Positions 1 through 16,013 of a stretch of DNA of 64,000 bases are shown piece after piece. Below the pieces are notes generated by a model. The model was not told the origin of the DNA. It was given only the letters and a program-made list of their open reading frames with translations, and searched no databases. Where the stretch lies: assembly GCF_001262015.1 (NCBI RefSeq), contig NZ_CP012075.1, positions 620,001-684,000 of the forward strand, in the 5' to 3' direction. Source of the stretch: Prevotella fusca JCM 17724 (GTDB lineage Bacteria > Bacteroidota > Bacteroidia > Bacteroidales > Bacteroidaceae). The position numbers were made by a program, and so were the translations under genes. Position 1 is the first letter of the stretch. Every line of letters begins with the position of its first letter.

Positions 1-1248
1 GCCGAGTACAGGCAGGGGAATGACGTGGAGCGTATCTACCGTATTCCTGACCGTATCGGCAACCTCTTTGAGACACGTGAGAAGGATGACCGTAAGTATG
101 GCACGGGCAGCAGGCTGGCGGAAGACCGTGACTACTTCTATCACTATGACTGTGAGGGCAACCTCGTGTTCAAGGAGTTCAGGACGCTGGACTGGACTGG
201 CATGTCCGTTCCGCTTGGCGGACAGAAGGCGCACCTGCAGGAGGAGCTCGGCATAACCTTCCGTGCCTTTGGTGCAGGCTGGCGTTATGACTGGCAGAGT
301 GACGGTATGCTGTCGAGGGTCGTCCGTCCTGACGGCAAGGAAGTGTCATTCGCATACGATGCGCTGGGCAGGCGGACCGAGAAAACCTATGAGGGTGTCA
401 CTACTCACTTCGTGTGGGACGGCAATGTTCCGCTGCACGAGTGGCAGGAAGTTGCTGCTGATGCCGGAAAGGCAGATGTCACAACCTGGCTCTTTGAGCA
501 GAACACGTTCATTCCTGCTGCCAAGCTCGCTGCCAACGGCGAGAGCTTCTCCATCGTGTCTGATTACCTCGGCACTCCCCTGCAGGCATTTGACAATAAC
601 GGCAACAAGGTATGGGAGCAGGAACTTGACATCTTCGGCAGAAAGAGGAAGGGAAACAATAAATCCTCCTTCATTCCGTTTAAGTACCAGGGGCAGTATG
701 AAGACGTTGAGACTGGGCTGTACTACAACCGATTCCGCTATTACGAACCTAATACTGGAACCTATATCAGCCAGGACCCGATAGGATTAGAAGGAGATAC
801 CCTTAACTTATATAATTACGTTGTTGATAATAATGACGGAATTGATCCTCTAGGTTTGTACAATCCTTATGGACATAAGAAGAATGGACAATTCAAAAAG
901 AAACCTGGTGCAAAACCAAAAGTCAAACCAAGTTTACATGGTAATTCTAGATCGTCTACCAAACCTGCTGTATTGTATGCCATGTATGATGGAGATGGTA
1001 ATTTCCAGAAATGGGGCATTACAGATAAAGTAAAGAACCCTAAATCTGGTCGTTATGGCAATTCTTTACCTGATGACTGGGATGTTAGAGAGATGAGTCG
1101 AGGAAAGAGAACTGATATGTTGGATTTAGAAAGAGAATTGTCTGAAAAGGTTCCAGGTCCTTTAAATCATGAAAGTTGGGCTGGAAGCAAAAAAGGTGAG
1201 ACGTTAAGTAATAAGGCCGAAGCTATATATAAGAAAGCAAATCATTGA
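1..1248 (+). CDS. Rhs C-terminal segment 1 with URI/GIY-YIG-like nuclease tip (5' end outside window)
   Basis: The reading frame is open from base 1, so this is the 3' part of a longer rhs gene. Bases 1-789 encode YD-type Rhs core ending in the conserved junction YISQDPIGL; after base 790 base composition drops and an unrelated tip of about 150 residues begins. The tip contains YAMYDGDGNFQKWGIT followed by a conserved R-Y and a later E/L-rich helix, the pattern of URI/GIY-YIG-fold nuclease toxins (Tox-URI2 class). Rhs proteins form a shell that encloses and delivers such a tip. The next gene begins 18 bases on and is the expected immunity partner. This is the only segment that could be the true end of an intact rhs gene. 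The tip assignment is by motif only; the Rhs call is certain. Confidence 0.8.
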   Translation, partial: AEYRQGNDVERIYRIPDRIGNLFETREKDDRKYGTGSRLAEDRDYFYHYDCEGNLVFKEFRTLDWTGMSVPLGGQKAHLQEELGITFRAFGAGWRYDWQSDGMLSRVVRPDGKEVSFAYDALGRRTEKTYEGVTTHFVWDGNVPLHEWQEVAADAGKADVTTWLFEQNTFIPAAKLAANGESFSIVSDYLGTPLQAFDNNGNKVWEQELDIFGRKRKGNNKSSFIPFKYQGQYEDVETGLYYNRFRYYEPNTGTYISQDPIGLEGDTLNLYNYVVDNNDGIDPLGLYNPYGHKKNGQFKKKPGAKPKVKPSLHGNSRSSTKPAVLYAMYDGDGNFQKWGITDKVKNPKSGRYGNSLPDDWDVREMSRGKRTDMLDLERELSEKVPGPLNHESWAGSKKGETLSNKAEAIYKKANH

Positions 1249-1266
1249 CATTTAATCGTTTGACAG

Positions 1267-1704
1267 ATGGAAATTATTGTAAGTTCTGTAATAGGTGGGC
1301 AACTAGTGCCTGAAGTTGGGATGGAGAAAAAACTACATCAAATAATAATTGAAATGAGGAAATCTCTAAAAAAACAGTTTGTAAATAATTCCTTTGAAGG
1401 GCTGTCCAAGATAAAGATCAATTTATACATTAGTGGAGATCTGTCAGAATATTGCTCCAAATCAGGAATAACAAAATATCGATATTTTCAGAAAAAGAAT
1501 GAATTTATTTCCGAGTTTTGTATTGATAGATATTATTGGAATTCTGAACCAATGCTTGATACGAAAAAGAAATTTCTATTGTTTTTAGAGAGTTCATTTA
1601 TAAATTTAGGGATTTTGATTAAGGAAAAACTAAAATCTAAAGGATATAACTTTGATAGTGAGATGTTTAAAGAAATAGCTTTAAAAAGCCTAATAGCACT
1701 ATAG
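1267..1704 (+). CDS. Putative immunity protein for the URI-like tip
   Basis: A 145-residue soluble protein without signal peptide or membrane segment, starting at ATG 1267, 18 bases after the stop of the toxin tip. Base composition is AT-rich like the tip and unlike the Rhs core. I do not recognise a family; the stretch FCIDRYYWNS in the second half and lysine-rich helices are all that stands out. Position directly behind a toxin tip is the only reason for calling it immunity, which is the normal gene order in Rhs loci. Confidence 0.55.
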   Translation: MEIIVSSVIGGQLVPEVGMEKKLHQIIIEMRKSLKKQFVNNSFEGLSKIKINLYISGDLSEYCSKSGITKYRYFQKKNEFISEFCIDRYYWNSEPMLDTKKKFLLFLESSFINLGILIKEKLKSKGYNFDSEMFKEIALKSLIAL

Positions 1705-1858
1705 AATGGACAACGACAATGAATGTTATTGATGTTTCATAGACCTTGAAGGGTCTTACGGAATTTGGAGTAATATCGTTTAATATCTGATTATCAACAA
1801 CTTTTGTAAATTCTATTCTTTTATTTCCCTTTATTTACTGAGTATTAAAGAATATAAT

Positions 1859-2218
1859 ATGTTTAAATTAGAATTTAAAGCAAATACTATCGTAGCTAAA
1901 AAGAATAGTAAGGACAATTATTATATGGTTGGTTTTGCAGATGACAAGTATAATTATAAGAATTATATATTGTTTCAAAGACCAATTATGTTGGATGACG
2001 ACGACGATCCAGATGCTGACTTAAATGGACTATATGCTGAATGTAATGGTGATATATGTTATAATGCTTGTAAGTCAGTACGAATGACAAGTAAGAGTTG
2101 TGTGTTTATTGTTCAAGATAGTACTATCATCGTAGATATAGAAAATATAAAGATAAACAAACGTTTTATAGAATATAGCAAGAGTATCTTTAAGGACTTG
2201 TTGGTTCTTGACCTTTAA
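1859..2218 (+). CDS. Imm10-like immunity protein (orphan)
   Basis: A 119-residue acidic, AT-rich gene. The block VGFADDKYNYKNYILFQR followed by an Asp-rich loop and a YAECNG strand resembles the Imm10 family (typically GFADD...YLxLQR). No toxin tip stands directly upstream: the preceding gene is the putative immunity gene of segment 1. It is therefore an orphan immunity gene, of the kind retained to protect against toxins of kin strains. Start ATG 1859 follows an AT-rich leader. Family call from motif memory, not a search. Confidence 0.55.
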   Translation: MFKLEFKANTIVAKKNSKDNYYMVGFADDKYNYKNYILFQRPIMLDDDDDPDADLNGLYAECNGDICYNACKSVRMTSKSCVFIVQDSTIIVDIENIKINKRFIEYSKSIFKDLLVLDL

Positions 2219-2271
2219 CCCTTTTTGCTCCTATTATTTAGTACAATATTCTTTTGTTTAGGAGCTTAGGG

Positions 2272-3118
2272 GAAGGATGACCGCAAGTATGGCACGGGCA
2301 GCAGGCTGGCGGAAGACCGTGACTACTTCTATCACTATGACTGCGAGGGCAACCTCGTGTTCAAGGAGTTCAGGACGCTGGACTGGGCCGGTGTGTCCGT
2401 TCCGCTCGGCGGACAGAAGGCGCACCTGGAGGAGGAGCTCGGCATAACCTTCCGTGCCTTTGGTGCAGGCTGGCGTTATGACTGGCAGAGTGACGGTATG
2501 CTGTCGAGGGTCGTCCGTCCTGACGGCAAGGAAGTGTCATTCGCATACGATGCGCTGGGTAGGCGGACCGAGAAGACCTATGAGGGCGTCGCTACTCACT
2601 TCGTGTGGGATGGCAATGTGCCGTTGCACGAGTGGCAGGAAGTCTCTTCTGATGCCGGAAGGGCAGATGTCACTACCTGGCTCTTCGAGCAGGACACGTT
2701 CATTCCTGCTGCCAAGCTCGCTGGCAACGGCGAGAGCTTCTCCATCGTGTCTGACTACCTCGGCACTCCCTTGCAGGCATTTGACAATAACGGCAACAAG
2801 GTTTGGGAGCAGGAGCTCGACATCTTCGGCAGGAAGAGGACGGGCAACAATAAATCCTCTTTCATTTCGTTTAAGTACCAGGGTCAGTATGAGGACATTG
2901 AGACGGGGCTGTACTACAACCGCTTCCGCTACTACGAACCGAATACTGGAACCTATATCAGTCAGGACCCGATAAGACTTAATGGCGGGCTATTGCTATT
3001 CGGATATGTTAGCAACTACATTAGTCAGGACCCGATAGGGTTATCGGAGGGAGATAATTTATATTCTTATGTACAAAATCCAACAATATGTATAGATACG
3101 TTTGGATTATCTGGGTAA
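2272..3118 (+). pseudogene. Displaced Rhs segment 2, no start codon, doubled junction
   Basis: Rhs core homology starts abruptly at about 2272 (KDDRKYG) in mid-domain, directly after AT-rich intergenic DNA, with no ATG or ribosome site; the first in-frame alternative start is GTG 2357. The core runs to YISQDPI (about 2950-2974), continues with a short scrap ending in GYVSN, and then repeats YISQDPIGL (about 3018-3042). This double junction suggests that one tip was replaced by recombination at the conserved site and left a stub. The frame closes at 3118, just where the toxin domain continues in another frame. It is best read as a silent cassette. Confidence 0.8.
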
Positions 3119-3518
3119 AGATGGATGGGGAAAACAAAAAAAGATGGGACTCCATACAAGAAACCTGGTCCCTAAGCCCAGAGGAACAGGAGCACACAAT
3201 GCAAAAATAGAAGAAATTATTAATCGAGAAGCATCAAAACCAGGTATTACTCATATCGGTGGCGGGTCAAAGAGTGAAATAACTATCAATACCCCAAATG
3301 GTAGTAAACCTTATCGAAGAATGGATACTTCATTCCAAAGAGCAGATGGTAGTATTTATCATATAAATGTTGGTAGGACGTTGAATGATGATAAGGCAGG
3401 TATAAAGAGAGAGCGATTAGCTCTTGAAGATGATCTTAATGATGGACATGACGTTTCGTTTGAAGGTTATGGGAGGGATTCGAATTTTAGAAAAAACAAA
3501 AAAACAGACACTCATTAA
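3119..3518 (+). pseudogene. Toxin tip of segment 2, frameshifted from its Rhs core (putative PD-(D/E)XK-like nuclease)
   Basis: The tip continues the segment-2 protein one frame over: the joint is near GLSG|KDGWGK at about 3112-3125. The roughly 130-residue domain contains YRRMDTSF, DGSIYHINVG and RERLALEDDL. I recognise this as the end of many Rhs tips of the form R-x-D...DG-x-Y-x-INVGK...RE-x-AL-x-DL, thought to be restriction-fold nucleases. The single-base frame change would stop toxin synthesis unless corrected. The open frame reaches back to 3102, but there is no good start. An intact downstream immunity candidate is retained. Confidence 0.55.
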
Positions 3519-3524
3519 TTGCTT

Positions 3525-4046
3525 ATGTCTTATATAAATGTTATTATGCCTTTAGTTGAGTTTGTGCCATATATTAACGATATGGTCGTGAAGTATGATT
3601 GTGTTGTATATTTAAGGGAAAAGAAAACAAAAGATGTTTTTTATACAGCAAAACTCAATATGGCAAATTATAGAAGTGTTATTGGTGATGGTATAGAGGA
3701 CAAGTTGTTTTTCTTTGTCTCTTTAAAAGATTACAACGAAGCAGGTATTTCTTTTTATGATGATGAAGTATGCAAGGGAACTATTGAAGGAATAGGAGGA
3801 AGGGCAAATGAAAACGAAGTTGAGTTGATTTCATTGCGGTTGATTTCTAAAGAACCTGAAGGAGAGATTAAAAGACTATTTAATGCCATAAGGAATAAAC
3901 TAAAGAAAGATCCAACTATAGGCGTTGGTGTTCAAAGTGGCTCATCGAGGTATCCTAAATTCTTTTATCAGAAGTCGCTGACAGACAATAAGGTCTTTAA
4001 GTTTGACCTCAATAATGACAAATTGCCTGTTATCAAGCCATTGTAG
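3525..4046 (+). CDS. Putative immunity protein for the segment-2 tip
   Basis: A 173-residue soluble protein starting at ATG 3525 (MSYINVIMPL), only a few bases after the toxin stop at 3518. It is AT-rich, with no signal peptide or membrane segment. I do not recognise the family. Visible features are an N-terminal YLREKKTKDVFYTAKLN strand pair, a Gly-rich loop (GTIEGIGGRANE) and a basic C-terminal half. The immunity role is inferred from position behind a toxin tip. Confidence 0.5.
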   Translation: MSYINVIMPLVEFVPYINDMVVKYDCVVYLREKKTKDVFYTAKLNMANYRSVIGDGIEDKLFFFVSLKDYNEAGISFYDDEVCKGTIEGIGGRANENEVELISLRLISKEPEGEIKRLFNAIRNKLKKDPTIGVGVQSGSSRYPKFFYQKSLTDNKVFKFDLNNDKLPVIKPL

Positions 4047-4175
4047 TAGATATTAAACTCAAATCGGTAATTAGAGATTTTGGAGAGAAAAGCGTTATGA
4101 ATTGCTATCAGTTATTGGAGAAAATATATTACTTCACGCATTACAATTACCATACATCTTGAATTTCCTGACAAA

Positions 4176-4661
4176 ATGAAAGCGAAATTTTCTAATGACC
4201 GCATTTGGGTTAAAGTGTTGCTACAGATTGAAATTCCTCGGCTAAGCGAGGATGTTGATATAGTTTCTATACGGAAAATATTAAATGAGTATGTAAATTC
4301 TCTTATTCCTCGGATCAATATCCAAGATTTAAAGGATTGGAGTCTTTTGATATGGGTAGCTTTCCGGTCTACAAATGGAATCGGCGTTTTTAAACGAGCA
4401 AGACGTTACCCTTCAGATAAAGAATTTGAATTTTCGATTTCTGTTACTATCCCAGATGATAATCAGGCTTCGTATGGTCTTTCCAAAGTAAAAGAAGCAT
4501 TCTACACACCACTGAATGATAAAAGTTTTTATAGCTTAGAATTTAACTTTGAAGACTACAACAATTTATACGAATACATTCTTGACAGTTCTAAACATGC
4601 AATAGATTTGGCCTTTATAAATGGTATTACATGTAATGGCAAAAAGATTAAGTTTCAATAA
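4176..4661 (+). CDS. Imm9-like orphan immunity protein, possibly 5'-truncated
   Basis: A 161-residue AT-rich protein. The segment FKRARRYPSDKEFEFSISV, a following YGL, and a C-terminal block ending NGITCNGKKIKFQ recall a Bacteroidota immunity family I associate with Imm9. The frame stays open upstream of ATG 4176 and encodes ITITIHLEFPDK, which looks like a missing N-terminal strand, but no in-frame ATG is present there, so the gene may have lost its start. No cognate tip lies upstream, so it is another orphan. Confidence 0.45.
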   Translation: MKAKFSNDRIWVKVLLQIEIPRLSEDVDIVSIRKILNEYVNSLIPRINIQDLKDWSLLIWVAFRSTNGIGVFKRARRYPSDKEFEFSISVTIPDDNQASYGLSKVKEAFYTPLNDKSFYSLEFNFEDYNNLYEYILDSSKHAIDLAFINGITCNGKKIKFQ

Positions 4662-4717
4662 TAATGGTGATACTCTAATGTATTATTAAGGTATGTGAGT
4701 TTGATCTTTCAAGAAAA

Positions 4718-5089
4718 AAGGAATCATTAACAGCTGAAGCAACAATTAAATGATCAGATTTAGGTACAGGAACAGATACAAACGCTGCATCTAGGAAGTA
4801 TGCAAGAAGTCTTGGTAATGCAGATGATGATGCTGGTCACATAATAGGAAAACAGCTTGGAGGTTCAGGTGGAAAGAAAAATGTTTTCCCACAAAACTTT
4901 CATGTAAATAGAGGCGAGTTTGCACAGGTTGAAGGACGTGTTGTCGATTTCGTTGACTTACATGGGCAAGCTGACATTCAAATAAAATTCCAGTATAAAA
5001 ACGGTGGAACGCGTCCAACAAAAATAACTTATACTGCAACCGCACCAGACAAGAGCAGAATTAAGAAAACGTTTAAAAAGACTCATTAA
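4718..5089 (+). pseudogene. Orphan DNA/RNA non-specific nuclease tip, copy 1 (stop codon inside, no Rhs core)
   Basis: About 120 codons matching the tip at 8,730-9,101 but without any Rhs core in front. It keeps the nuclease signature DDAGHIIGKQLGG, then NVFPQNFHVNRGEF and a late E, as in Endonuclea_NS_2-type toxins in which the GH histidine and a following Asn/Glu serve metal and catalysis. A TGA at 4751 interrupts the frame. The downstream immunity gene is intact. The remnant lies at the left edge of the 2.7-kb direct repeat. Confidence 0.75.
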
Positions 5090-5101
5090 TGTAAATTAAA
5101 T

Positions 5102-5521
5102 ATGGACAAGATTGAAGTTGCTAAAAATAGACTCTCTAATTTCATTAAAGCAATGAATTTGTGGGAAAAAGAATGTAATAGGAATGAAGAGGAAGATATT
5201 GACGAAACAGAGCAGTTTAGGTTACAAAAACAAATGCTTACTGATATCTTTTCAGAATATTGCACAGAAAGAAAAAGGCAAAATGGACGTCCTAACACTA
5301 TATCGTATGGGGCAGAAGGCTCATTTGAGTATGACCCTGAAGAAGAGAGAATAATTAATACAAATGAGTGTGAAAATAAGGTGTTAATTACCACGAAAAG
5401 AGAGAAGCCTATGCAAGAAGAGTTTATTTACACTTTGCTATGGAAAGGGGGAAACTGGTTATTGGATTCCAAAAAAAGATATTCCAGATGGAAAAACAAG
5501 TGGGAGGTCGTCTCATTGTAA
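5102..5521 (+). CDS. NTF2-fold-like immunity protein, copy 1
   Basis: A 139-residue protein starting at ATG 5102, 12 bases after the nuclease remnant. It is nearly identical to the gene at 9114-9533. It has a charged N-terminal helix, a central strand region (SFEYDPEEERI) and a C-terminal TLLWKGGNWLLDSKKRY, compatible with a cone-shaped NTF2-like fold seen in immunity proteins of nuclease toxins; this family call is tentative. Its toxin copy is dead, yet the immunity gene remains open. Confidence 0.6.
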   Translation: MDKIEVAKNRLSNFIKAMNLWEKECNRNEEEDIDETEQFRLQKQMLTDIFSEYCTERKRQNGRPNTISYGAEGSFEYDPEEERIINTNECENKVLITTKREKPMQEEFIYTLLWKGGNWLLDSKKRYSRWKNKWEVVSL

Positions 5522-5611
5522 ATCTCCACTCTTCAAATCATCCAATAATAAGTTGCATTTGACAAAATCAAGAATTTCTTTAAAATGGTAATGTAACAGA
5601 ACAGATTCTAA

Positions 5612-7912
5612 ACACTGAATTTTATACGCAAGTTCAACAGCCGGCAGGAACTCCGGCAGCTTGTCTTCCCGAATGGCATTCACCGTACATGGGACTATGA
5701 TGAGCGTGGAAGACTTGTCAAGGCAACGGATGTCAAGGGCAACGTGACTTCCTATGGCTATGATGACGCTGACAATCTGATACGCCTGCATGAACCGGAT
5801 GGCAATGTACACGATTTCTCCTATGACACCTCGGGCAACCTTGTCATGGCTTCCGACCGGCTGCGCAAGGTGGAGTTCGAGTACGGACCGCTGGGAACGC
5901 TCATCGGCAGGCGACAGTTCGACCATCATGTGCGTTTCCGTTATGACGGTGAGCTGCAGCTGCGCGAGATCATCAACGAGGGCGGCGAACGCTATTCCTT
6001 CCGTCTTGACGGACTCGGCCGTGTCGTAGAGGAGACGGGCTTTGACGGACTGCAGCGTAAGTACCTTCGTGATGGTGCCGGCAGGGTAATACGGGTTGTC
6101 CGCCCCGAGGGAAGACGGACTGACTATGAGTATGACGGTGTGGGCAATATCCTGCAGGAAACACATCATGACGGGCGGACAAGCTGTTTTGCCTATGACG
6201 GGGACGGACAGCTGCTGCGTGCAGAGAACAAGGAGATGAAGGTTGCCTTCAAGCACGACACAGGGGGGCGGATAGTGAAGGAGACACAGGGCGAACACAG
6301 TATCATGCGCAAGTATGAGCGCACAGGACGACACGTGCATACTGAGAGCAGTCTTGGGGCAAGCATTGACTATGCCCACGACAGGGATGGCAACCTCAGC
6401 GGGATGAACAGCGGAGGATGGTCAGCCAGATGGCAGCGTGACAGGGTAGGCCTGGAGACGGAGCGTGAACTTACAGGCGGAGTGCATGTAAGGACGCATC
6501 ATGACAGCCTTGGACGTGAGACCTACAAGTCAGTAGGTGCACGCAATGTCGAGCAGTTCCACCGCAGCTACACCTGGGGCATCGGCAACCGTCTTCATGC
6601 AACCGAGGACGGTCTTACGGGTCGCCGGGTCCGCTATGACTACGACGAGTTCGACGATCTTCTTTCCGCCGAGTACAGGCAGGGGAATGACGTGGAGCGC
6701 ATCTACCGTATTCCTGACCGTATCGGCAACCTCTTTGAGACACGTGAGAAGGATGACCGTAAGTATGGCACGGGCAGCAGGCTGGCGGAAGACCGTGACT
6801 ACTTCTATCACTATGACTGCGAGGGCAACCTCGTGTTCAAGGAGTTCAGGACGCTGGACTGGGCTGGTGTGGCCGTTCCGCTTGGCGGACAGAAAGCGCA
6901 CCTGGAGGAGGAGCTCGGCATAACCTTCCGTGCCTTTGGTGCAGGCTGGCGTTATGACTGGCAGAGTGACGGTATGCTGTCGAGGGTCGTCCGTCCTGAC
7001 GGCAAGGAAGTGTCATTCGCATACGATGCGCTGGGCAGGCGGACCGAGAAGACCTATGAGGGTGTGACCACTCACTTCGTGTGGGACGGCAATGTTCCGC
7101 TGCACGAGTGGCAGGAAGTTGCTTCTGATGCCGGAAAGGCAGATGTCACCACCTGGCTCTTTGAGCAGAACACGTTTATTCCAGCTGCCAAGCTCGCTGC
7201 CAACGGCGAGAGCTTCTCCATCGTGTCTGATTACCTCGGCACTCCCCTGCAGGCATTTGACAATAACGGCAACAAGGTATGGGAGCAGGAACTTGACATC
7301 TTCGGCAGAAAGAGGAAGGGAAACAATAAATCCTCCTTCATTCCGTTTAAGTACCAGGGGCAGTATGAAGACGTTGAGACTGGGCTGTACTACAACCGAT
7401 TCCGCTACTATGAACCGAGGACGGGAAGTTATATTAGTCAAGACCCGATTGGATTAGCAGGTGACAATCCAACATTATATTCGTATGTAGGAGAACCAAA
7501 TAAGTGGATAGACCTATTGGGATTATCAAAAACTCCGACATCTACACTGCAAAAAAAATGGGAAAATCATGTCGGTTCTAAGCATATACATTCTGATATA
7601 CATCATGGTTTTCCAGAGGAATTTTCAAGCAGATTTAAAAATATAGCAGATATTGATGTAAATAATCCGAAGTATTATTATAATCTGCCTAAATCTAAAC
7701 ATACTCGGAAGCCTGGTATCCACACAAATAGTTCACGTACAGGAAAAAATTGGAATAAAACATGGTCTGGTATTTTGGATCGGGTTGAAAAGATGAAATT
7801 ATCTAAGAATGAAGCAAAAACCTTTCTTGAGGCAAGGCTAAGGGAGCTTGCACGGAAAGAACGGATCAGTAAATATAATTCGGAAGCTGTAAAAAGAATT
7901 GGTAACCATTAA
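5612..7912 (+). CDS. Displaced Rhs segment 3 with HH-motif (HNH/Endo VII-like) nuclease tip
   Basis: The frame is open from 5612 after a TAA; Rhs homology starts near 5638 (SRQELRQLV). The first plausible initiator is GTG 5744 and no ribosome site is evident, so expression as it stands is doubtful. About 600 residues of YD repeats (RYDxxG-type) lead to YISQDPIGL at about 7,430-7,455. The tip of about 150 residues holds SDIHHGFPEEF, NNPKYYYNLP, KH and a final NWNKTW block, an arrangement of His/Asn/Trp typical of HNH/Endo VII-type toxin nucleases. The next gene is a SUKH immunity protein 14 bases on. Rhs identity is certain; tip class is by motif. Confidence 0.75.
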   Translation, partial: TLNFIRKFNSRQELRQLVFPNGIHRTWDYDERGRLVKATDVKGNVTSYGYDDADNLIRLHEPDGNVHDFSYDTSGNLVMASDRLRKVEFEYGPLGTLIGRRQFDHHVRFRYDGELQLREIINEGGERYSFRLDGLGRVVEETGFDGLQRKYLRDGAGRVIRVVRPEGRRTDYEYDGVGNILQETHHDGRTSCFAYDGDGQLLRAENKEMKVAFKHDTGGRIVKETQGEHSIMRKYERTGRHVHTESSLGASIDYAHDRDGNLSGMNSGGWSARWQRDRVGLETERELTGGVHVRTHHDSLGRETYKSVGARNVEQFHRSYTWGIGNRLHATEDGLTGRRVRYDYDEFDDLLSAEYRQGNDVERIYRIPDRIGNLFETREKDDRKYGTGSRLAEDRDYFYHYDCEGNLVFKEFRTLDWAGVAVPLGGQKAHLEEELGITFRAFGAGWRYDWQSDGMLSRVVRPDGKEVSFAYDALGRRTEKTYEGVTTHFVWDGNVPLHEWQEVASDAGKADVTTWLFEQNTFIPAAKLAANGESFSIVSDYLGTPLQAFDNNGNKVWEQELDIFGRKRKGNNKSSFIPFKYQGQYEDVETGLYYNRFRYYEPRTGSYISQDPIGLAGDNPTLYSYVGEPNKWIDLLGLSKTPTSTLQKKWENHVGSKHIHSDIHHGFPEEFSSRFKNIADIDVNNPKYYYNLPKSKHTRKPGIHTNSSRTGKNWNKTWSGILDRVEKMKLSKNEAKTFLEARLRELARKERISKYNSEAVKRIGNH

Positions 7913-7926
7913 ACATTGAGTTTATT

Positions 7927-8445
7927 ATGATTTTTAGGAAACTATCGGAATATGAAGTATTAGAAAGAATGGAACAAAGAAAGGTAGTACTTCGGAAATT
8001 GGATAAGCTACCCTTATTAGACAAGTTCTACCTTTCCTTCGTCTCAAAATACGAAGGCATAGAGATTACACCTGACATTGAAGTGTTTGGATATGAGAAA
8101 GCGTTATGCGAAAATCGCTATTTGGCAGCTAATTATGGCAATATAAGTGAAAAAGTTTGGCTAGTTGGCACTTCTGGACAAGGCGATGAATGGTTTATAA
8201 ACAGGGAAAACAACTTTGTGTTATTCTATGATCATAATCAAGGGGAATATTCTAACATTAGCCAGTTTACATGTTTAAACATTTCATTTTGCAATTTTCT
8301 ACAAATGGCTTTTTTATACCAAGACTTAGAAGAATTGTTGGACAAACAAGGACCTGTAGATAAGACTCTGATTGATAATTTTATTAAAGAGGTTAATTCC
8401 ATACACCCTGATCTATACACGACCTACCCTTATAAGTATTTCTGA
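7927..8445 (+). CDS. SUKH (SMI1/KNR4-like) immunity protein
   Basis: A 172-residue AT-rich protein following the HH nuclease tip. The central block VGTSGQGDEWFINRENNFVL followed by FYDHNQGEY and a C-terminal ISFCNFLQMAFLY is characteristic of SUKH-superfamily immunity proteins, which bind a wide range of nuclease tips directly. Start ATG 7927 lies 14 bases after the toxin stop. Its 3' end runs into the truncated Rhs segment 4, which begins about 12 bases after the stop. Confidence 0.7.
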   Translation: MIFRKLSEYEVLERMEQRKVVLRKLDKLPLLDKFYLSFVSKYEGIEITPDIEVFGYEKALCENRYLAANYGNISEKVWLVGTSGQGDEWFINRENNFVLFYDHNQGEYSNISQFTCLNISFCNFLQMAFLYQDLEELLDKQGPVDKTLIDNFIKEVNSIHPDLYTTYPYKYF

Positions 8446-8457
8446 TTTTATAGAGAA

Positions 8458-9101
8458 GGAGCAGGAGCTTGACATCTTCGGCAGGAAGAGCAGCAATAAC
8501 TCCTCCTTCATTCCGTTTAAGTATCAGGGGCAGTATGAGGATGTTGAGACGGGGCCGTATTACAACCGCTTCCGCTACTATGAGCCGAATACAGGAACCT
8601 ATATCAGTCAGGACCCGATAGGATTGGCTGGAAATAATCCCACGTTGTATGGATACGTAAACGATATTAATACACATTTGGATGTTTTAGGACTCACTAT
8701 AATTCCTACAGTTACAAGGGGTGCAAACAAGGAAGTATTAACAGCGGAAGCGACAATTAAAAGATCAGATTTAGGTACAGGATCAAATACAAACGCTGCA
8801 TCAAGGAAATATGCAAGAAGTCTTGGTAATGTAGATGATGATGCTGGTCACATGATAGGAAAACAGCTTGGAGGTTCAGGTGGAAAGAGAAATGTTTTTC
8901 CACAAGACTTTCATGTGAATAGAGGTGAGTTTGCACAGTTTGAAGGACGTGTTGTCGATTTCGTTGACTTACATGGGCAAGCTGACATTCAAATAAAATT
9001 CCAGTATAAAAACGGTGGAACACGCCCAACAAAAATAACTTATACTGCAAACTGCACCAGATAAAAGTAGAATTAAGAAAACGTTTAAAAATACTCATTA
9101 A
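8458..9101 (+). pseudogene. Displaced Rhs segment 4: shortest core plus DNA/RNA non-specific nuclease tip, late frameshift
   Basis: Only about 55 residues of Rhs core remain (from EQELDIFGRK to YISQDPIGL), without start codon. The tip carries DDAGHMIGKQLGG and NVFPQDFHVNRGEF, the His-Asn-Glu signature of Endonuclea_NS_2-type nucleases. Compared with copy 1, one extra base near 9050 (TYTAN versus TYTAT) ends the frame at 9064, whereas the homologous end lies at 9101. The catalytic block is before the change. The intact immunity gene follows 12 bases after the ancestral stop. Confidence 0.75.
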
Positions 9102-11437
9102 TGTAAATTAATTATGGACAAGATTGAAATTGCTAAAAACAGACTTTCCAATTTCATTAAAGCAATGAATTCGTGGGAAAAAGAATGTAATAAGATTGAA
9201 GAGGAAGATATTGACGAAACAGAGCAGTTTAGGTTACAAAAACAAATGCTTACTGATATCTTTTCAGAATATTGCACAGAAAGAAAAAGGCAAAATGGAC
9301 GTCCTAACACTATATCGTATGGGGCAGAAGGCTCATTTGAGTATGACCCTGAAGAAGAGAGAATAATTAATACAAATGAGTGTGAAAATAAGGTGTTAAT
9401 TACCACGAAAAGAGAGAAGCCTATGCAAGAAGAGTTTATTTACACTTTGCTATGGAAAGGGGGAAACTGGTTATTGGATTCCAAAAAAAGATATTCCAGA
9501 TGGAAAAACAAGTGGGAGGTCGTCTCATTGTAAATCTCCACTCTTCAAATCATCCAATAATAAGTTGCATTTGACAAAATCAAGAATTTCTTTAAAATGG
9601 TAATGTAACAGAACAGATTCTAAACACTGAATTTTATACGCAAGTTCAACAGCCGGCAGGAACTCCGGCAGCTAGTATTCCCGAATGGCATTCACCGTAC
9701 ATGGGATTATGATGAGCGTGAAAGACTTGTCAAGGCAACGGATGTCAAGGGCAACGTGACTTCCTATGGCTATGATGATGCAGACAATCTGATACGCCTG
9801 CAGGAACCGGATGGCAATGTGCACGAGTTCTCCTATGATACCTCGGGCAACCTTGTCATGGCTTCCGACCGGCTGCGCAAGGTGGAGTTCGAGTACGGAC
9901 CGCTGGGAACGCTCATCGGCAGGCGACAGTTCGACCATCATGTGCGTTTCCGTTATGACGGTGAGCTGCAGCTGCATGAGATCATCAACGAGGGCGGCGA
10001 ACGCTATTCCTTCCGTCTTGACGGACTCGGTCGTGTCGTGGAGGAGACGGGCTTTGACGGACTGCAGCGTAAGTACCTTCGTGATGGTGCCGGCAGGGTA
10101 ATACGGGTTGTCCGCCCCGGAGGCAGGCAGACTGAATATGAGTATGACGGTGTGGGAAATATCCTGCAGGAAACACATCATGACGGTCGGACAAGCCGCT
10201 TTGCCTATGACGGGGACGGACAGCTGCTGCGCGCTGAGAACAAGGAGATGAAAGTAGCCTTCAAGCACGACACAGGGGGGCGGATAGTGAAGGAGACACA
10301 GGGCGAACACAGTATCATGCGCAAGTATGAGCGCACAGGACGACACGTGCATACTGAGAGCAGTCTTGGGGCAAGCATTGACTATGCCCACGACAGGGAT
10401 GGCAACCTCAGCGGGATGAACAGCGGAGGATGGTCAGCCAGATGGCAGCGTGACAGGGTAGGCCTGGAGACGGAGCGTGAACTTACAGGCGGAGTGCATG
10501 TAAGGACGCATCATGACAGCCTTGGACGTGAGACCTACAAGTCGGTGGGTGCACGCAATGTCGAGCAGTTCCGCCGCAGCTATACCTGGGGCATCGGCAA
10601 CCGTCTTCATGCAACCGAGGACGGTCTTACGGGTCGCCGGGTCCGCTATGACTACGACGAGTTCGACGATCTTCTTTCCGCCGAGTACAGGCAGGGGAAT
10701 GACGTGGAGCGTATCTACCGTATTCCTGACCGTATCGGCAACCTCTTTGAGACACGTGAGAAGGATGACCGTAAGTATGGCACGGGCAGCAGGCTGGCGG
10801 AAGACCGTGACTACTTCTATCACTATGACTGTGAGGGCAACCTCGTGTTCAAGGAGTTCAGGACGCTGGACTGGGCTGGTGTGGCCGTTCCGCTTGGCGG
10901 ACAGAAAGCGCACCTGGAGGAGGAGCTCGGCATAACCTTCCGTGCCTTTGGTGCAGGCTGGCGTTATGACTGGCAGAGTGACGGTATGCTGTCGAGGGTC
11001 GTCCGTCCTGACGGCAAGGAAGTGTCATTCGCATACGATGCGCTGGGCAGGCGGACCGAGAAGACCTATGAGGGTGTGACCACTCACTTCGTGTGGGACG
11101 GCAATGTTCCGCTGCACGAGTGGCAGGAAGTTGCTTCTGATGCCGGAAAGGCAGATGTCACCACCTGGCTCTTTGAGCAGAACACGTTTATTCCAGCTGC
11201 CAAGCTCGCTGCCAACGGCGAGAGCTTCTCCATCGTGTCTGATTACCTCGGCACTCCCCTGCAGGCATTTGACAATAACGGCAACAAGGTATGGGAGCAG
11301 GAGCTTGACATCTTCGGCAGAAAGAGGACGGGCAACAATAATTCCTCCTTCATTCCGTTTAAATATCAGGGTCAGTATGAGGATGTTGAGACGGAGCTGT
11401 ACTACAACCGCTTCCGCTACTATGATTCGAGTACGGG
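8730..11437 (+). repeat. Direct repeat, right copy
   Basis: Right-hand partner of the 4,718-7,425 repeat. Most differences are single bases in the Rhs core; the toxin part differs more (no internal stop here, but a late frameshift). Confidence 0.85.
9114..9533 (+). CDS. NTF2-fold-like immunity protein, copy 2
   Basis: A 139-residue protein differing from the 5102-5521 copy at only a few positions near the N-terminus (for example NSWEKECNKIEEED versus NLWEKECNRNEEED). The long identical 3' part and spacer show recent duplication or gene conversion. It should protect against the adjacent nuclease tip; fold call tentative. Confidence 0.6.
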   Translation: MDKIEIAKNRLSNFIKAMNSWEKECNKIEEEDIDETEQFRLQKQMLTDIFSEYCTERKRQNGRPNTISYGAEGSFEYDPEEERIINTNECENKVLITTKREKPMQEEFIYTLLWKGGNWLLDSKKRYSRWKNKWEVVSL

Positions 11438-11945
11438 TAATTATATCAGCCAGGACCCGATAGGATTGGCGGGTGGTAATCCGACATTATATGGCTATGT
11501 TTTTAATTCTAATATAGAGCTAGATATTTTAGGGCTCATAATTGTTTATAGGGCACTAAACGGAAAACAGGAAGAACAGGCATTAAATAATACATCCATT
11601 CAGCCAAAGAACAGCTCTGCTAATTACTCCATCCAAGAGCATATAGATAATGGAAACTTAGAAACGCAATATATCTCTACGACAAAACGACAAGAAATAG
11701 CAGAACGCTATGCGAGTCCAAACCCTAAAAGAGGGAAGACAGAGTCAAGTACTATTATAGAAATTGACACAGACAAATTAAACCCAAAGAAAGTATGTGA
11801 TGTTTCTAATGGGATTAATCCAGAAACAGGAGTCCCTCTTAATAATCCAGTAAGAAAGTGGGCAAGGAAAGACTCAGAAGTTCTTATTCATGGAGATATT
11901 CCTAATGACGCATATAAAATTCATAAAAAAGGAGGAAATCATTAG
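9624..11945 (+). CDS. Displaced Rhs segment 5 with ADP-ribosyltransferase tip
   Basis: The Rhs core is nearly identical to segment 3 (repeat copy), open from 9624, first plausible initiator GTG 9756, no clear ribosome site. After YISQDPIGL the tip begins IIVYRALNGKQEE and shows the three landmarks of R-S-E class ADP-ribosyltransferases in order: the Arg in VYRAL, the STT in QYISTTK, and the late Glu in SEVLIHGDIP. Such tips transfer ADP-ribose from NAD to a target protein or nucleic acid. The stop at 11945 is immediately followed by ATG 11947 of the next gene. Tip class is well supported by motif order; target unknown. Confidence 0.78.
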   Translation, partial: TLNFIRKFNSRQELRQLVFPNGIHRTWDYDERERLVKATDVKGNVTSYGYDDADNLIRLQEPDGNVHEFSYDTSGNLVMASDRLRKVEFEYGPLGTLIGRRQFDHHVRFRYDGELQLHEIINEGGERYSFRLDGLGRVVEETGFDGLQRKYLRDGAGRVIRVVRPGGRQTEYEYDGVGNILQETHHDGRTSRFAYDGDGQLLRAENKEMKVAFKHDTGGRIVKETQGEHSIMRKYERTGRHVHTESSLGASIDYAHDRDGNLSGMNSGGWSARWQRDRVGLETERELTGGVHVRTHHDSLGRETYKSVGARNVEQFRRSYTWGIGNRLHATEDGLTGRRVRYDYDEFDDLLSAEYRQGNDVERIYRIPDRIGNLFETREKDDRKYGTGSRLAEDRDYFYHYDCEGNLVFKEFRTLDWAGVAVPLGGQKAHLEEELGITFRAFGAGWRYDWQSDGMLSRVVRPDGKEVSFAYDALGRRTEKTYEGVTTHFVWDGNVPLHEWQEVASDAGKADVTTWLFEQNTFIPAAKLAANGESFSIVSDYLGTPLQAFDNNGNKVWEQELDIFGRKRTGNNNSSFIPFKYQGQYEDVETELYYNRFRYYDSSTGNYISQDPIGLAGGNPTLYGYVFNSNIELDILGLIIVYRALNGKQEEQALNNTSIQPKNSSANYSIQEHIDNGNLETQYISTTKRQEIAERYASPNPKRGKTESSTIIEIDTDKLNPKKVCDVSNGINPETGVPLNNPVRKWARKDSEVLIHGDIPNDAYKIHKKGGNH

Positions 11946-11946
11946 A

Positions 11947-12294
11947 ATGGAAGAGACGTGTTATCTAAAAGAGATTGAAAGAATAAAATCTATATTAGAA
12001 GATTATTATAACAAAGACTTTAATTCAGAAGAGGAGGATTTTCGTGTAAACAAGTTCAACAAAGAACTAATAGAGAAACTGATCGTTAATGTAAAACATG
12101 ATGATACAATGGCTGTTTCCAACAAAAGCTCTCTAATCAAGGAAGCACTTGTGCTCTTAGCAAAGAATACCGGGTGCGCAGAGGACGAGGTGATTTCTGA
12201 AGAAATACTAAATCGATTGTTGCTTACACAAACAATCGTACAGCAGGACATTGAATTTTATTCTAATCTAAAATCAACTAGAAGATGGATCTAA
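11947..12294 (+). CDS. Putative immunity protein for the ADP-ribosyltransferase tip
   Basis: A 115-residue acidic, helical protein (MEETCYLKEIERIKSI). Start chosen at ATG 11947 because AAAGGAGG lies just upstream inside the toxin's last codons, giving near-overlapping, probably coupled translation. The frame itself is open further back, but that would overlap the toxin by 50 bases. No family recognised; role inferred from position. Confidence 0.55.
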   Translation: MEETCYLKEIERIKSILEDYYNKDFNSEEEDFRVNKFNKELIEKLIVNVKHDDTMAVSNKSSLIKEALVLLAKNTGCAEDEVISEEILNRLLLTQTIVQQDIEFYSNLKSTRRWI

Positions 12295-12417
12295 TTTTAT
12301 AGCAGTCCAATATTTAACAGCATACTTTCCTATGCGGGTTCTTTTAAATAGATAATATCGTATTGTACTAGAAGAAATAAGCCACCTGATAAAATAAGTA
12401 TTGTATGCTTATGGTAT

Positions 12418-13782
12418 TACAACCGGCTTCACGTAACCGAGGACGGTCTTACGGGTCGCCGGGTCCGCTATGACTATGATGAGTTCGACAATCTTCTTTC
12501 CGCCGAGTACAGGCAGGGGAATGACGTGGAGCGTATCTACCGTATTCCTGACCGTATCGGCAACCTCTTTGAGACACGTGAGAAGGATGACCGTAAGTAT
12601 GGCACGGGCAGCAGGCTGGCGGAAGACCGTGACTACTTCTATCACTATGACTGCGAGGGCAACCTCGTGTTCAAGGAGTTCAGGACGCTGGACTGGACCG
12701 GTGTGTCCGTTCCGCTTGGCGGACAGAAGGCGCACCTGGAGGAGGAGCTCGGCATAACCTTCCGTGCCTTTGGTGCAGGCTGGCGTTATGACTGGCAGAG
12801 TGACGGTATGCTGTCGAGGGTCGTCCGTCCTGACGGCAAGGAAGTGTCATTCGCATACGATGCGCTGGGCAGGCGGACCGAGAAAACCTATGAGGGTGTC
12901 ACTACTCACTTCGTGTGGGACGGCAATGTTCCGCTGCACGAGTGGCAGGAAATTGCTGCTGATGCCGGAAAGGCTGATGTCACCACCTGGCTCTTTGAGC
13001 AGAACACGTTTATTCCTGCTGCCAAGCTCGCTGCCAACGGCGAGAGCTTCTCCATCGTGTCAGATTACCTCGGCACTCCCCTGCAGGCATTTGACAATAA
13101 CGGCAACAAGGTATGGGAGCAGGAGCTTGACATCTTCGGCAGGAAGAGGACGGCCAACAATAAATCCTCCTTCATTCCGTTTAAGTACCAGGGTCAGTAT
13201 GAGGACATTGAGACGGGGCTGTACTACAACCGCTTCCGCTATTATGAACCGAATACTGGAACCTATATCAGCCAGGACCCGATAGGATTGGTGGGCGGAA
13301 ATCCGACACTATATGCGTATGTTGGAAGTCCTAACAACTGGTATGATATATTTGGCTTACGACCATTCGGGCATGCTGTGGGAGATATTGGTGAGAAAGC
13401 TGTAATTAATGACCTTAAAAAGAACGGTTATGAGATTATAGACGTAAAGTACGGCTCTAACAACGGTATTGATGTGCTTGCCAAGAGTCCAAGTACAGGG
13501 AAATATGATGCTTTTGAGGTGAAGTCTTCGACAGTAGGCAAATATAATCTTTCTGAAGCTCAAATGGATCCTGAAAACTTTGTTAAGACACGAGTGAATA
13601 ATGCTGTAGCAAATGGCAAAATTAATAAGAGAACTCGCAGGGATATCATGACTAATTTAGGGGATAGAAAAGTAGCCTATGTGGGTATAAAGCGTGGTGA
13701 AAAAGGGAAATTGTATGCAGATTCCATCAGGTATGAGAATTGGGATACAGAAGCAAAAAGGGTTCTGCTGGATTTAGTGTGA
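12418..13782 (+). CDS. Displaced Rhs segment 6 with PD-(D/E)XK nuclease tip
   Basis: Rhs homology begins mid-core at 12421 (NRLHVTEDG) after AT-rich spacer; the first alternative start is GTG 12526. After YISQDPIGL (about 13,285) the tip shows GDIGEKAVINDLKKNGYEII, NNGIDVLA, FEVKSS and a later SEAQ, i.e. the E...D...ExK...Q order of PD-(D/E)XK (restriction-fold) nucleases. All catalytic positions look intact. Unlike the other tips, no immunity gene follows: an ISL3 transposase remnant on the other strand starts one base after the stop, so the partner was probably lost or displaced. Confidence 0.75.
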   Translation, partial: YNRLHVTEDGLTGRRVRYDYDEFDNLLSAEYRQGNDVERIYRIPDRIGNLFETREKDDRKYGTGSRLAEDRDYFYHYDCEGNLVFKEFRTLDWTGVSVPLGGQKAHLEEELGITFRAFGAGWRYDWQSDGMLSRVVRPDGKEVSFAYDALGRRTEKTYEGVTTHFVWDGNVPLHEWQEIAADAGKADVTTWLFEQNTFIPAAKLAANGESFSIVSDYLGTPLQAFDNNGNKVWEQELDIFGRKRTANNKSSFIPFKYQGQYEDIETGLYYNRFRYYEPNTGTYISQDPIGLVGGNPTLYAYVGSPNNWYDIFGLRPFGHAVGDIGEKAVINDLKKNGYEIIDVKYGSNNGIDVLAKSPSTGKYDAFEVKSSTVGKYNLSEAQMDPENFVKTRVNNAVANGKINKRTRRDIMTNLGDRKVAYVGIKRGEKGKLYADSIRYENWDTEAKRVLLDLV

Positions 13783-13783
13783 A

Positions 13784-14880
13784 TTAACTTATGTCTAGCC
13801 CACCGTAGAAAAATAGAATAGCAATCCTGTATCTCTCGGCAGTTCCATATCCTCTGTCGATGGTCTTTATCTCTTGAATGGAGCCGTTGGTTCTTTCGGC
13901 TTTGCCGTTATTTGCACCTGTGACCATGGCTCTGACAATGCCTTTAAGGTGTCTCTTGAACATGAAGACCACCCCGTTGATTTCCTCTATGTTGTACCGC
14001 AATGCATCATCCATCCGGCGCAGCAACATTCCGTAAGCTTCCATGTCACCATGGTACTTGAGATGTAGGAGGTCACGAAAGAGTTCTTTGACTTTCCAAG
14101 CCTGCGAAACCTCATATTCCGCATCTTCAAGCTTGTTGAAACGAGCCTGGTCGTTGGTGGTATATTTGGACTGGTCCTTTAACCACAAATATTTGGTGTG
14201 TCTCAGTTCCGGGAAGTGCCTGACCTCACGTTTGCGAACTTTGTCAACGGCGTCGTTCAGATAGGTGACACAGTGGTACATGTCGTGGCAGTGGCTGGCG
14301 TTAGGGAAGTACTTCTTCGCTCCGTCAATGAAGGCGTCCCACATGTCCGTGCATACGGTCTTCACACCTGCTCTTTGCTCTTCAGTGAAAGCCTTGGTGC
14401 ACAGATTCTCAACACTTTTCCTGGTGCGCCCGCCCTCTACTTCGATGACATTTCCTGTATCTCCGTCATAGAGCATACTCACATACTCATGCCCCCGTCG
14501 GATTGACTTCTCATCCATACAGACATGCTCATGGATGTGCCTGTCGTCACGCCGATTCAATCCCCGTTCAACAGCTCGTTGCATCACTCCATGTACTTGG
14601 TCAAAGGACAGGCGAAGAAGACGTGCAGTCTTTGTCTGATTCTTGGTGGACAGTAATGTTTCTACCGTTTTTTTTCCATCAACCAAGACAGCCGGGAGTT
14701 CGGCATTGCCCACGGAACGGGGACGCTCTTGATTCCGTCTCCATCCCGGTATCGGGGGACTCGGGCTTCAAGAATCGTCTTGTACTGCCACATGTCCAAG
14801 TGCCTCCAACTCCGTTCGTGACGGAAGTCAAATATAGGGAATTCCTTCCCATCAACATGGATGGTGTCATGGCGATATTT
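13784..14880 (-). pseudogene. ISL3-family transposase in two frames, truncated at its 5' end
   Basis: The C-terminal 309 residues form one frame (14713-13784) with the ISL3 DDE landmarks: CMDEKSIRRGHEYVSMLYD, VKTVCTDMWDAF, HCHDMYH and NNGKAERTNGSIQEIKTIDRGYG. The N-terminal part (HDTIHVDGKEFPIFDFRHERSW, RYRDGDGIKSVPVPWAM) is in the neighbouring frame at about 14,880-14,665. The frames join across a run of eight A (coding strand) near 14,664-14,671; a -1 shift there gives a continuous ISL3 protein. The gene is cut at about 14,880 where another element begins, and no IS end is visible beyond its stop. It is a remnant. Confidence 0.8.
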
Positions 14881-14881
14881 G

Positions 14882-15470
14882 AAATGCGTAGATTGGAAAC
14901 AGAACCAAAGGCTTATACACCTGTATGGTATGACTATCCAAAATCAGACGGTCTCACAAAAAAGGATAAAGTGCAAGATAAGAATGCAGAAAAGGCAAAT
15001 ACTTACTATGCCCTTCCGTCTTCTACAAACAACTTATTCCCATACTAACCGCTATTTGTAAACTATTTTCATGCAACCCAAAACCAATACATGGTCTCTT
15101 GGCTTTGAAAAGACGCCCAATTGACTTGCAATAGACACCCTTTTGAGGTCTAACTAACGCCCTTTTGAAGTCCAATTAAGCACCTTTTCTTACATGACCC
15201 TATAACTAACGGATTTTCTGCAGGTTGCAAACTTGCTTTTTATGCGTGTTATTGCCTTTATCTGTAGGTATTTTATCCGAAATTATGTCATGATTTTTCA
15301 ATCTGCTGCCTGCTGTTTCAAAGTATTGGTATGAAAAGGTTTTCTGCATCGGAGGATGATAATAAAGTAGGTAGCCAAGACAGTCTCTTGACTATGTTTT
15401 ATTTAATGAACAACTCCAGTTCTTCCGTTAAAGCTATACGAAAAGTGTCCACACATTTAACGGAAGAACC
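14882..15470 (-). mobile_element. Non-autonomous ISL3-like element, copy D (one end truncated)
   Basis: One of four copies of a 0.6-kb element with ends related to GGTTCTTCCGTTAAATGCGT. Here the end at 15470 is intact and followed by the target sequence CTTTATAA, while the end at 14882 is cut next to the ISL3 remnant. The interior carries a small hairpin (AGCCAAGAC/GTCTTGGCT) and the GCTTAATTGGACTTCA repeat array. It sits inside an IS1380 transposase fragment. No transposase of its own. Confidence 0.75.
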
Positions 15471-16013
15471 CTTTATAAGCCCCATTCTCCGTATCATCCG
15501 TAAAAGTAAGGTATTCAGCTTCTCTGCAGTGTTGAACCTGTAAGACCTGCCAGAGGTTTCGCTCTTATAGACAATATTCTCTTCGGCAAGCTCCTTCAGT
15601 CCGCGCCCCACGGTGTCGGCACAGGGTAACAGCGTAGCAGGTCTCTGCCTGAACTGTCCTGTAAGCGCATTGATGTCCTCAAGACAATCCCCACCGCAAA
15701 GGCAGCTGAAGAAGAGAGAGCCCAGAATGCTTCCATGGCTGAATGCCTTGCCGCTGCATCCGCATCTGCCCAACACGGATTCGGTAAGTTTTTCAAAGCC
15801 CAACTTTGAAAAAACGTCCATGATGTGATAAATTCCTCCGAAGGAAGTGATATTCTCGTTTTTAATTGCTACCTTTGTCATGTCAGATTTTTGCTTGCTT
15901 GTTATGTTTGTTGCACTAAGATAGGTGAAAATTCTGACATATCCAAGTGTTTTGAGGACTTTGTTTCTCTGGCACTTGGATTTCTCACAAGAAATAATGC
16001 TGCGGAATTAAGG
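15471..16013 (-). mobile_element. IS1380-family element remnant, copy D (left end and transposase N-terminus)
   Basis: The frame starting at ATG 15881 (MTKVAIKNENITSFGGIYHIMDVF) and LCGGDCLEDINAL are the N-terminus of IS1380-type transposases. The frame continues to RMIRRMGLIK and then reads into the inserted element, gaining about 23 foreign residues before a stop at 15399. The IS left end (TTCCGCAGC... then CTTGTGAG on the minus strand) is at 16013 and abuts an IS66 fragment. The catalytic domain is absent. Confidence 0.75.

Follow-up and report, generated by a model that had tools for sequence, protein, structure and literature searches.

We conclude that the left end of a 64,000-nucleotide stretch of the Prevotella fusca JCM 17724 genome very probably holds a C-terminal displacement array, that is, a row of displaced rhs toxin tips behind an rhs effector gene of type VI secretion. 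The stretch analyzed (the window) runs from base 620001 to base 684000 of C2, the second of the two chromosome-sized contigs that make up the 3.26-Mb genome. One complete rhs gene bears the single live tip and its immunity gene, and older or acquired tip and immunity cassettes, with pieces of core and without the front part of the protein, stand downstream in the same direction. The main gene would acquire an orphan tip if its core crossed over with that of an orphan cassette, open immunity genes could guard against relatives still bearing those tips, and toxin parts would decay sooner than immunity parts. The comparisons below give good support for core recombination and for the exchange of tips among lineages; we infer that tips also switch within this genome and that the orphan immunity genes are protective. 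Tips are designated T1 to T7, orphan cores are named by start position (c5630, c9642), fetched loci carry L numbers, and Rhs proteins of relatives carry P numbers.

The complete rhs gene and its live tip

The initial annotation, made on the window alone, described six Rhs core segments that end at a shared junction and continue into AT-rich tips. This description holds. A pattern search of the window places the junction motif at 766, 3020, 7433, 8603, 11445, and 13267 (n = 6), all on the plus strand, and the reversed pattern has no occurrence in the whole genome. G+C content is mostly 57 to 60% in the cores, about 51 to 52% toward the core ends, and about 27 to 40% in the tips and small genes. 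A full-length rhs gene had been expected left of base 1, and one was found: a gene of 1419 codons with no internal stops (L013, 89-4348) that begins 3.0 kb left of the window, runs from C2:616989 to window position 1248, and has the same direction as the orphan cassettes. Its product has RHS repeats and DUF6531. The end of the gene (1-1248, plus strand) comprises core, the junction at 766, and the live tip T1. Because the first segment is the end of a complete gene, five rather than six junction-bearing tips are displaced, with the T3 remnant described below as an extra; the proposal that all six segments are displaced is rejected.

The gene order left of base 1 is hcp, vgrG, a gene for 456 residues without a firm family, and then the complete rhs gene. 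In profile searches, the hcp product matches TssD (E = 4.2e-43) and its neighbor has VgrG domains. TssC, the only apparatus gene searched for, is encoded at C2:1336225 (E = 1.3e-227) and was found in 0 of 14 control genomes. No PAAR family appears among the Pfam matches of the complete Rhs protein at E = 0.01. Prevotella jejuni (best stretches 87-89%) and P. denticola (72%) have the nearest named rhs relatives. T1 has no Pfam family at E = 1, and six other Rhs proteins of 1428-1538 residues (e.g., P0010, P0007, and P0062) end in the same tip. T1 is followed by its Imm12 immunity gene (1267-1704, plus strand; PF15560, E = 1.2e-52). Single-sequence structure models gave a mean predicted local distance difference test score (pLDDT) of 46.0 for T1 and 58.6 for T4.

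Displaced cores and tips

The five orphan cores are 85-97% identical to the main core (blastn against the complete rhs gene). They begin at positions 3093, 1975, 3627, 1975, and 2931 of that gene, hence at four different 5' starts, and both cores that begin at 1975 are preceded by an identical 40 bases. All cassettes lie on the plus strand. Orphan core 2 (2272-3118, open frame 2270-3118) shares 94.1% identity with the main core across 706 bp (2272-2977) and bears the ISQDPI motif twice (2957 and 3020), 63 bases apart; its frame closes at 3118, ahead of the tip. T2 (3102-3518) is open, in a frame differing from that of its core, and shares 67.6% identity with the tip of P0004, a complete Rhs protein. 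The doubled motif (2957-3042) looks like the trace of one tip joined into the beginning of a second. T3 (4714-5086) is a remnant of the T5 type that has lost its front end and has neither core nor junction; it is 91.0% identical to residues 41-162 of the P0005 tip and has 1 internal stop.

The next orphan core, of 1835 bp and 96.9% identical to the main core (5630-7464), leads in frame into T4 (5630-7912, junction at 7433) within an open frame of 766 codons (5612-7912). A short core, 84.9% identical to the main one (8458-8636), carries T5 (8458-9064, junction at 8603), a member of the DNA/RNA non-specific endonuclease family (PF13930, E = 1.1e-12) that is 90.5% identical to the P0005 tip and broken in frame near its 3' end. 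Another long core, of 1826 bp and 96.9% identity (9642-11467), continues in frame into T6 (9642-11945, junction at 11445). T6 is ADP-ribosyltransferase-like: it matches the RhsF toxin, an ADP-ribosyltransferase (PDB 9zdm_B, E = 2.6e-18), and DUF7587 (E = 1.8e-9). The last core, again 96.9% identical to the main one (12420-13289), carries T7 (12420-13782, junction at 13267), with weak, below-cut-off matches to the nucleases UPF0102 and Mrr_cat. T7 is in frame with its core, but its usual last residues are missing, its end differs from that of its relatives, and a transposase gene lies directly behind it. T7-type tips in P. denticola and P. jejuni are followed by a gene for 280 residues that has no match in the window and none in the whole genome, in a search run without a positive control. 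PDB searches with T1, T4, T7, and the product of 3525-4043 gave no useful match.

In all, T1, T4, and T6 are open and in frame, T2 is out of frame, T3 and T5 are broken, and T7 is in frame with an altered end. The only displaced tips with an open frame joined to a core and an intact end are those at 7433-7912 (T4) and 11445-11945 (T6). The array had been read as a switchable arsenal. What stands of this is that the tips are displaced rhs ends, that three are live elsewhere, and that the cores have exchanged sequence; since only two displaced tips are open, in frame, and uncut, the usable arsenal is smaller than the tip count.

Immunity-like genes

Eight immunity-like genes, five of them with firm support, stand against three open, in-frame tips with normal ends (one live and two orphan), in agreement with the earlier claim that immunity genes outnumber intact toxins. 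All eight frames are open. A small AT-rich gene had been expected behind each tip, and an immunity-like gene does follow T1, T2, T4, T5, and T6, the family being firmly supported in the cases of T1, T5, and T6; T7 is the exception. The proposed profile search of tips and immunity genes was productive: beside PF13930 in T5, Imm12, Imm9, and two Imm-NTF2 genes score above the Pfam cut-off, and Imm10 and SUKH score below it.

The gene at 1859-2218, like the others on the plus strand, has no tip of its own and a weak Imm10 match (PF15588, E = 8.1e-4, 20.0 bits, cut-off 28.6). The presumed immunity gene of T2 (3525-4046) is assigned by position and composition only, its product having no family in Pfam at E = 0.1 or in NCBIfam at E = 0.01. 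A solo Imm9 gene with no tip ahead follows at 4176-4661 (PF15587, E = 2.2e-63), and behind the T3 remnant lies an NTF2-fold immunity gene (5102-5521; PF15655, E = 3.8e-23). The presumed immunity gene of T4 (7927-8445) has a weak SUKH match (PF14568, E = 0.016, 16.2 bits, cut-off 27), and that of T5 (9114-9533; PF15655, E = 6.2e-23) is an NTF2-fold near copy of 5102-5521. T6 is followed by an RhsFi-like gene (11947-12294; PDB 9zdm_A, E = 3.7e-9, with PDB support only), so that T6 and the gene behind it match both chains of one solved toxin-immunity crystal complex (PDB 9ZDM). Immunity genes that persist without an effector are 1859-2218 (weak family) and 4176-4661, both tipless, and 5102-5521, behind a tip remnant.

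Recombination and duplication in the core

Sequence exchange among the cores was assessed with 11 site-clustering triplet tests. For the main core, c5630, and c9642 over their whole length, 1 of 5000 permutations reaches the observed value; the other ten tests gave 0, 58, 1153, 5, 0, 88, 14, 0, 49, and 48 of 5000. Eight of the 11 tests are thus at or below 49 of 5000, and the remaining three are at 58, 88, and 1153; these figures are somewhat overstated, because the tests share sequences and coding sites vary unevenly. Between c5630 and c9642, an identical run of 470 bp lies amid 55 differences in 1824 positions, a length that 0 of 20000 shuffles reach; with the variable final 174 bp excluded, 7 of 20000 do. 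Runs common to the main gene and the orphan cores are weaker evidence, reached by 187, 45, and 52 of 5000 shuffles.

A 2.78-kb unit is present twice, at 4714-7488 and 8725-11500, with 96.5% identity. It is best read as the product of one unequal exchange, which would have been followed by loss at the left copy. Differing bases between the copies number 26 of 374 in the toxin, 7 of 420 in the immunity gene, 0 of 108 in the spacer, and 58 of 1835 in the core. By Fisher's test, the toxin differs from the immunity gene (p = 2.4e-4) and from the core (p = 0.0015); the corresponding values are 0.11 for the immunity gene against the core and 0.023 for the immunity gene plus spacer against the core. 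The NTF2 pair has 3 synonymous changes at 75 sites and 4 non-synonymous changes at 342 sites, a small sample. The lack of change in the spacer points to gene conversion there, which leaves selection on the immunity gene of the unit no more than possible.

The same tips in other genomes

Three of the five distinct orphan tips (T2, T5, and T7) are working tips of complete rhs genes elsewhere. The comparison of tips covered 106 of 121 Rhs proteins, including that of this genome, after 15 without the junction motif were dropped. P0005, the complete protein that shares T5, has a core 71-73% identical. In P. denticola NCTC13067, T7 is the live tip of an rhs gene (80.9%), and P. jejuni DSM 26989 carries it as an orphan (77.9%). 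The nuclease effector RdnE and its immunity protein RdnI were named in another P. jejuni strain, CD3:33 (PMC12483513); T7 might conceivably be that tip. T6 occurs at 99% on 8 further proteins of 444-729 residues, in a search blind to proteins longer than about 1275 residues. Searches with T6 and T5 including the linker matched, beyond this genome, 2 of 149 genomes, over 33-68 residues at the junction only. The weak matches of T4 in the tip comparison, at about 27-50%, are partly or wholly linker. The reverse combination is represented by P0002, whose core is 91% identical to the main one over 1288 residues and whose tip is unrelated to T1; P. jejuni has an orphan tip that is identical to that of P0002 at 131 of 142 residues.

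Of 17 comparisons, 13 have the tip as the more similar part and 4 the core (P0031, P. jejuni T7, P0022, and P0087), a count biased because many subjects were found by their tip. Entered in this comparison were 8 of 11 relatives of T6, of which 4 (P0122, P0123, P0128, and P0131) were then dropped for lack of the motif, with P0128 compared separately; 5 of 6 relatives of T1; and relatives of T5 and T7 picked by hand from the tip comparison and the loci. Core and tip histories appear, on these sequence comparisons, to be decoupled.

A second array and mixed core clades

The genome holds a second array on the opposite strand (C2:814784-841807; L011, L014), behind its own hcp and vgrG, with a complete rhs gene of 1395 codons and 12 orphan junctions. 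SUKH was found in 1 of 9 surrounding open reading frames scanned for Pfam immunity families. Together, the two arrays hold about 18 displaced tips or remnants (6 here and 12 junctions in the second, some cut short). Similarity between the arrays at the DNA level (about 69-85%) mostly spans the junction, from about 75 bp before it to about 100 bp behind it; at the DNA level there is little to align in the core bodies, the exception being a 117-bp core match at 69%. Both rhs loci encode identical Hcp, and by eye their VgrG proteins resemble each other in the front part and diverge toward the end (L009, 11280-13611; L011, 15149-17492). VgrG may be modular like Rhs.

The least expected details come from relatives, in the form of one mixed-clade array and one chimeric core. 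The array of P. jejuni (L017, 1190-9528) has core-1-type cassettes (72% and 89%) together with two others nearer core 2 (45% and 66%) than core 1 (38% and 41%). P0128, a single metagenome protein, combines about 60 residues like the second P. jejuni type (57 of 59) with a core-1-type core and the T6 tip. For rhs loci of Enterobacteriaceae, tips at one locus are said to carry cores of a single clade (PMC2935791); the related P. jejuni array mixes them, and the host here belongs to the Bacteroidota. We consider the mixed array and P0128 leads, not proof, against that within-clade limit.

With core flanking the units on either side, double exchange without tip loss is conceivable. It seems unlikely, on balance, that Prevotella tip and immunity units move by double exchange or gene conversion that keeps the displaced tip, also between arrays and core clades. 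The junction region would in that case be the shared block for exchange between core clades, with the P. jejuni array and P0128 as its traces, and such movement, if true, would break the limit stated for enterobacterial rhs. Against it stands the observation that the two arrays of this genome have none of 14 tested modules in common.

Evaluation of the displacement array and of alternative explanations

Signals of expression bear on several readings of the array. The Bacteroidota promoter pattern, scanned here in a form that is strict and of low sensitivity, matches the window 8 times versus 2.56 by chance, and none of the 8 matches lies in bases 1-16700. Sigma-70-like sites number 42 versus 28.7 (standard deviation, 5.8) in shuffles, with two strong ones (11 of 12 matches) on the plus strand at 5559 and 9571, just ahead of the long orphan cores; sigma-70 motifs are not those of Bacteroidota, and these sites are accordingly given little weight. 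Terminator-like sites number 7 versus 11.2 in shuffles, the only plus-strand one in the array lying inside a core at 5640. The scan found no plus-strand terminator-like site between cassettes, and read-through from the main operon is therefore possible.

Several observations weigh against a switchable displacement array. Switching in this lineage was not seen, one genome of the species having been compared. Among 398 genomes of the genus, T4 occurs in 1, its own. When 14 tip and immunity modules were compared with 13 fetched loci (those of the second array, P. jejuni, P. denticola, G075, and G132), only T7 was matched, and T7, without an immunity gene, fits a silent or dead tip and not an immunity bank. 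One of the 11 mosaic tests is far from significant (1153 of 5000), and the absence of differences in the spacer beside the immunity gene means that the contrast between toxin and immunity may partly reflect gene conversion. Finally, given the sigma-70-like excess and the two strong sites, silence of the orphans cannot be claimed.

The alternative that survives best holds that the cassettes are kept for immunity alone, the tips being passengers that are never reloaded. This is not exclusive of a displacement array and is possible, although we lean against it. The excess of eight immunity-like genes over three open, normal-end tips is as expected, as are the tipless genes at 1859-2218 and 4176-4661, and Escherichia coli EC93 is reported to make orphan CdiI and apparently not the orphan toxin (PMC3150448). 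However, the same tips stand on complete genes elsewhere and the cores recombine, so that in the course of time tips pass between orphan and live positions, in one direction or the other.

Slightly more doubtful is the idea that the row is debris of past tip replacements, inactive now, with frames that are open because they are young and not because they are kept. Four of the six displaced tips do show damage (T2 has left the frame of its core, T3 and T5 are broken, and T7 ends at a transposon and lacks an immunity gene), and none of the Bacteroidota-pattern matches falls within the array. Yet eight of eight immunity-like frames are open, the synonymous and non-synonymous changes of the NTF2 pair (3 of 75 versus 4 of 342, in a small sample) run counter to it, and the lack of a plus-strand terminator-like site between cassettes would let the main operon be read through.

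Very unlikely, in our view, is that the orphan cores are stand-alone toxin-antitoxin modules translated from GTG starts (5744, 9756, and 12526) and acting inside the cell: they have long open frames with in-frame starts and the strong sites at 5559 and 9571, but the GTG starts fall within stretches matching the main core, the two sites are copies of one duplicated unit with a motif that is not that of Bacteroidota, the strict and insensitive Bacteroidota pattern has no match there, and T7 would lack protection. An orphan Rhs of Salmonella has been reported as such a module (PMC7043789).

Comparison with known systems

We therefore retain the displacement array, a kind of locus described since 2009. 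In Enterobacteriaceae, dissociated tips with core pieces of variable length form a long row behind a complete rhs gene, and the histories of core and tip are described as decoupled (PMC2935791); the Prevotella array resembles these loci in both layout and decoupling. An orphan tip and immunity gene also lie behind the main rhs gene of Salmonella Typhimurium LT2, where the shared core is 95% identical over 522 bp (PMC3967940), compared to 94-97% over 706-1835 bp in four of the five orphans here. LT2 has one orphan, whereas six displaced tips or remnants occur in P. fusca, and the fusion was seen in evolved LT2 cells, whereas for P. fusca it is a prediction. It is this Salmonella report that gives evidence for the switch from orphan to main gene itself (PMC3967940).

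Rows of orphan toxin and immunity genes, up to eleven and some disrupted by insertion elements, are reported for cdiA-CT/cdiI arrays, for which the ideas of a reservoir and of an immunity repertoire are both stated (PMC3150448). Those systems use CdiA/CdiB two-partner secretion and a VENN junction, in contrast to type VI rhs and a DPIGL junction here. In type VI arrays of Vibrio cholerae, old immunity genes are retained after effector replacement (PMC5361080); these are orphan immunity genes, whereas in P. fusca tips persist as well. In Serratia, the complete rhs gene of Rhs1 is likewise followed by an orphan immunity gene, which in tests protects against a tip on the same core in another strain (PMC10539506); the orphan immunity genes of the present array may do the same. 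RhsF and RhsFi of Chromobacterium violaceum (PMC13324451; PDB 9ZDM), matched by T6 and its neighbor, differ in that RhsF is the tip of a complete gene and T6 belongs to an orphan cassette. Reservoir and immunity readings have thus been proposed earlier (PMC3150448, PMC8125069, and PMC5361080). None of the titles listed in the literature searches concerns rhs arrays of Prevotella. We regard this array as a well-formed Prevotella example, ordinary in kind and rich in detail, and the Prevotella arrays as well suited to asking whether rows of this type function in attack, in defense, or in neither.

Acquired interbacterial defense (rAID), which also consists of orphan immunity genes in Bacteroidota, was considered and rejected: a tyrosine recombinase would be expected next to the immunity genes, but Phage_integrase matches number 17 in the genome, with none on C2 between 184.5 and 767.4 kb, the span containing the array.

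Flanking features

A scan of the window at the Rfam gathering threshold gave no matches, and PADLOC returned no families for 9 proteins. The gene abutting the end of T7 encodes an ISL3-type transposase (13784-14713, minus strand; PF01610, E = 1.6e-53). Beyond it lies one copy of a dispersed repeat of about 590 bp that resembles a miniature inverted-repeat transposable element (14880-15470), with further window copies at 44159-44748 and 60310-60890. At least 40 copies of 518-602 bp and 85-100% identity are spread over both contigs and both strands, and the number may be higher because 40 of 225 candidates were scored. In the 5 copies checked, the longest open stretch is 89 codons; the ends of the repeat mirror each other. 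One copy lies upstream of hcp at each of the two rhs loci.

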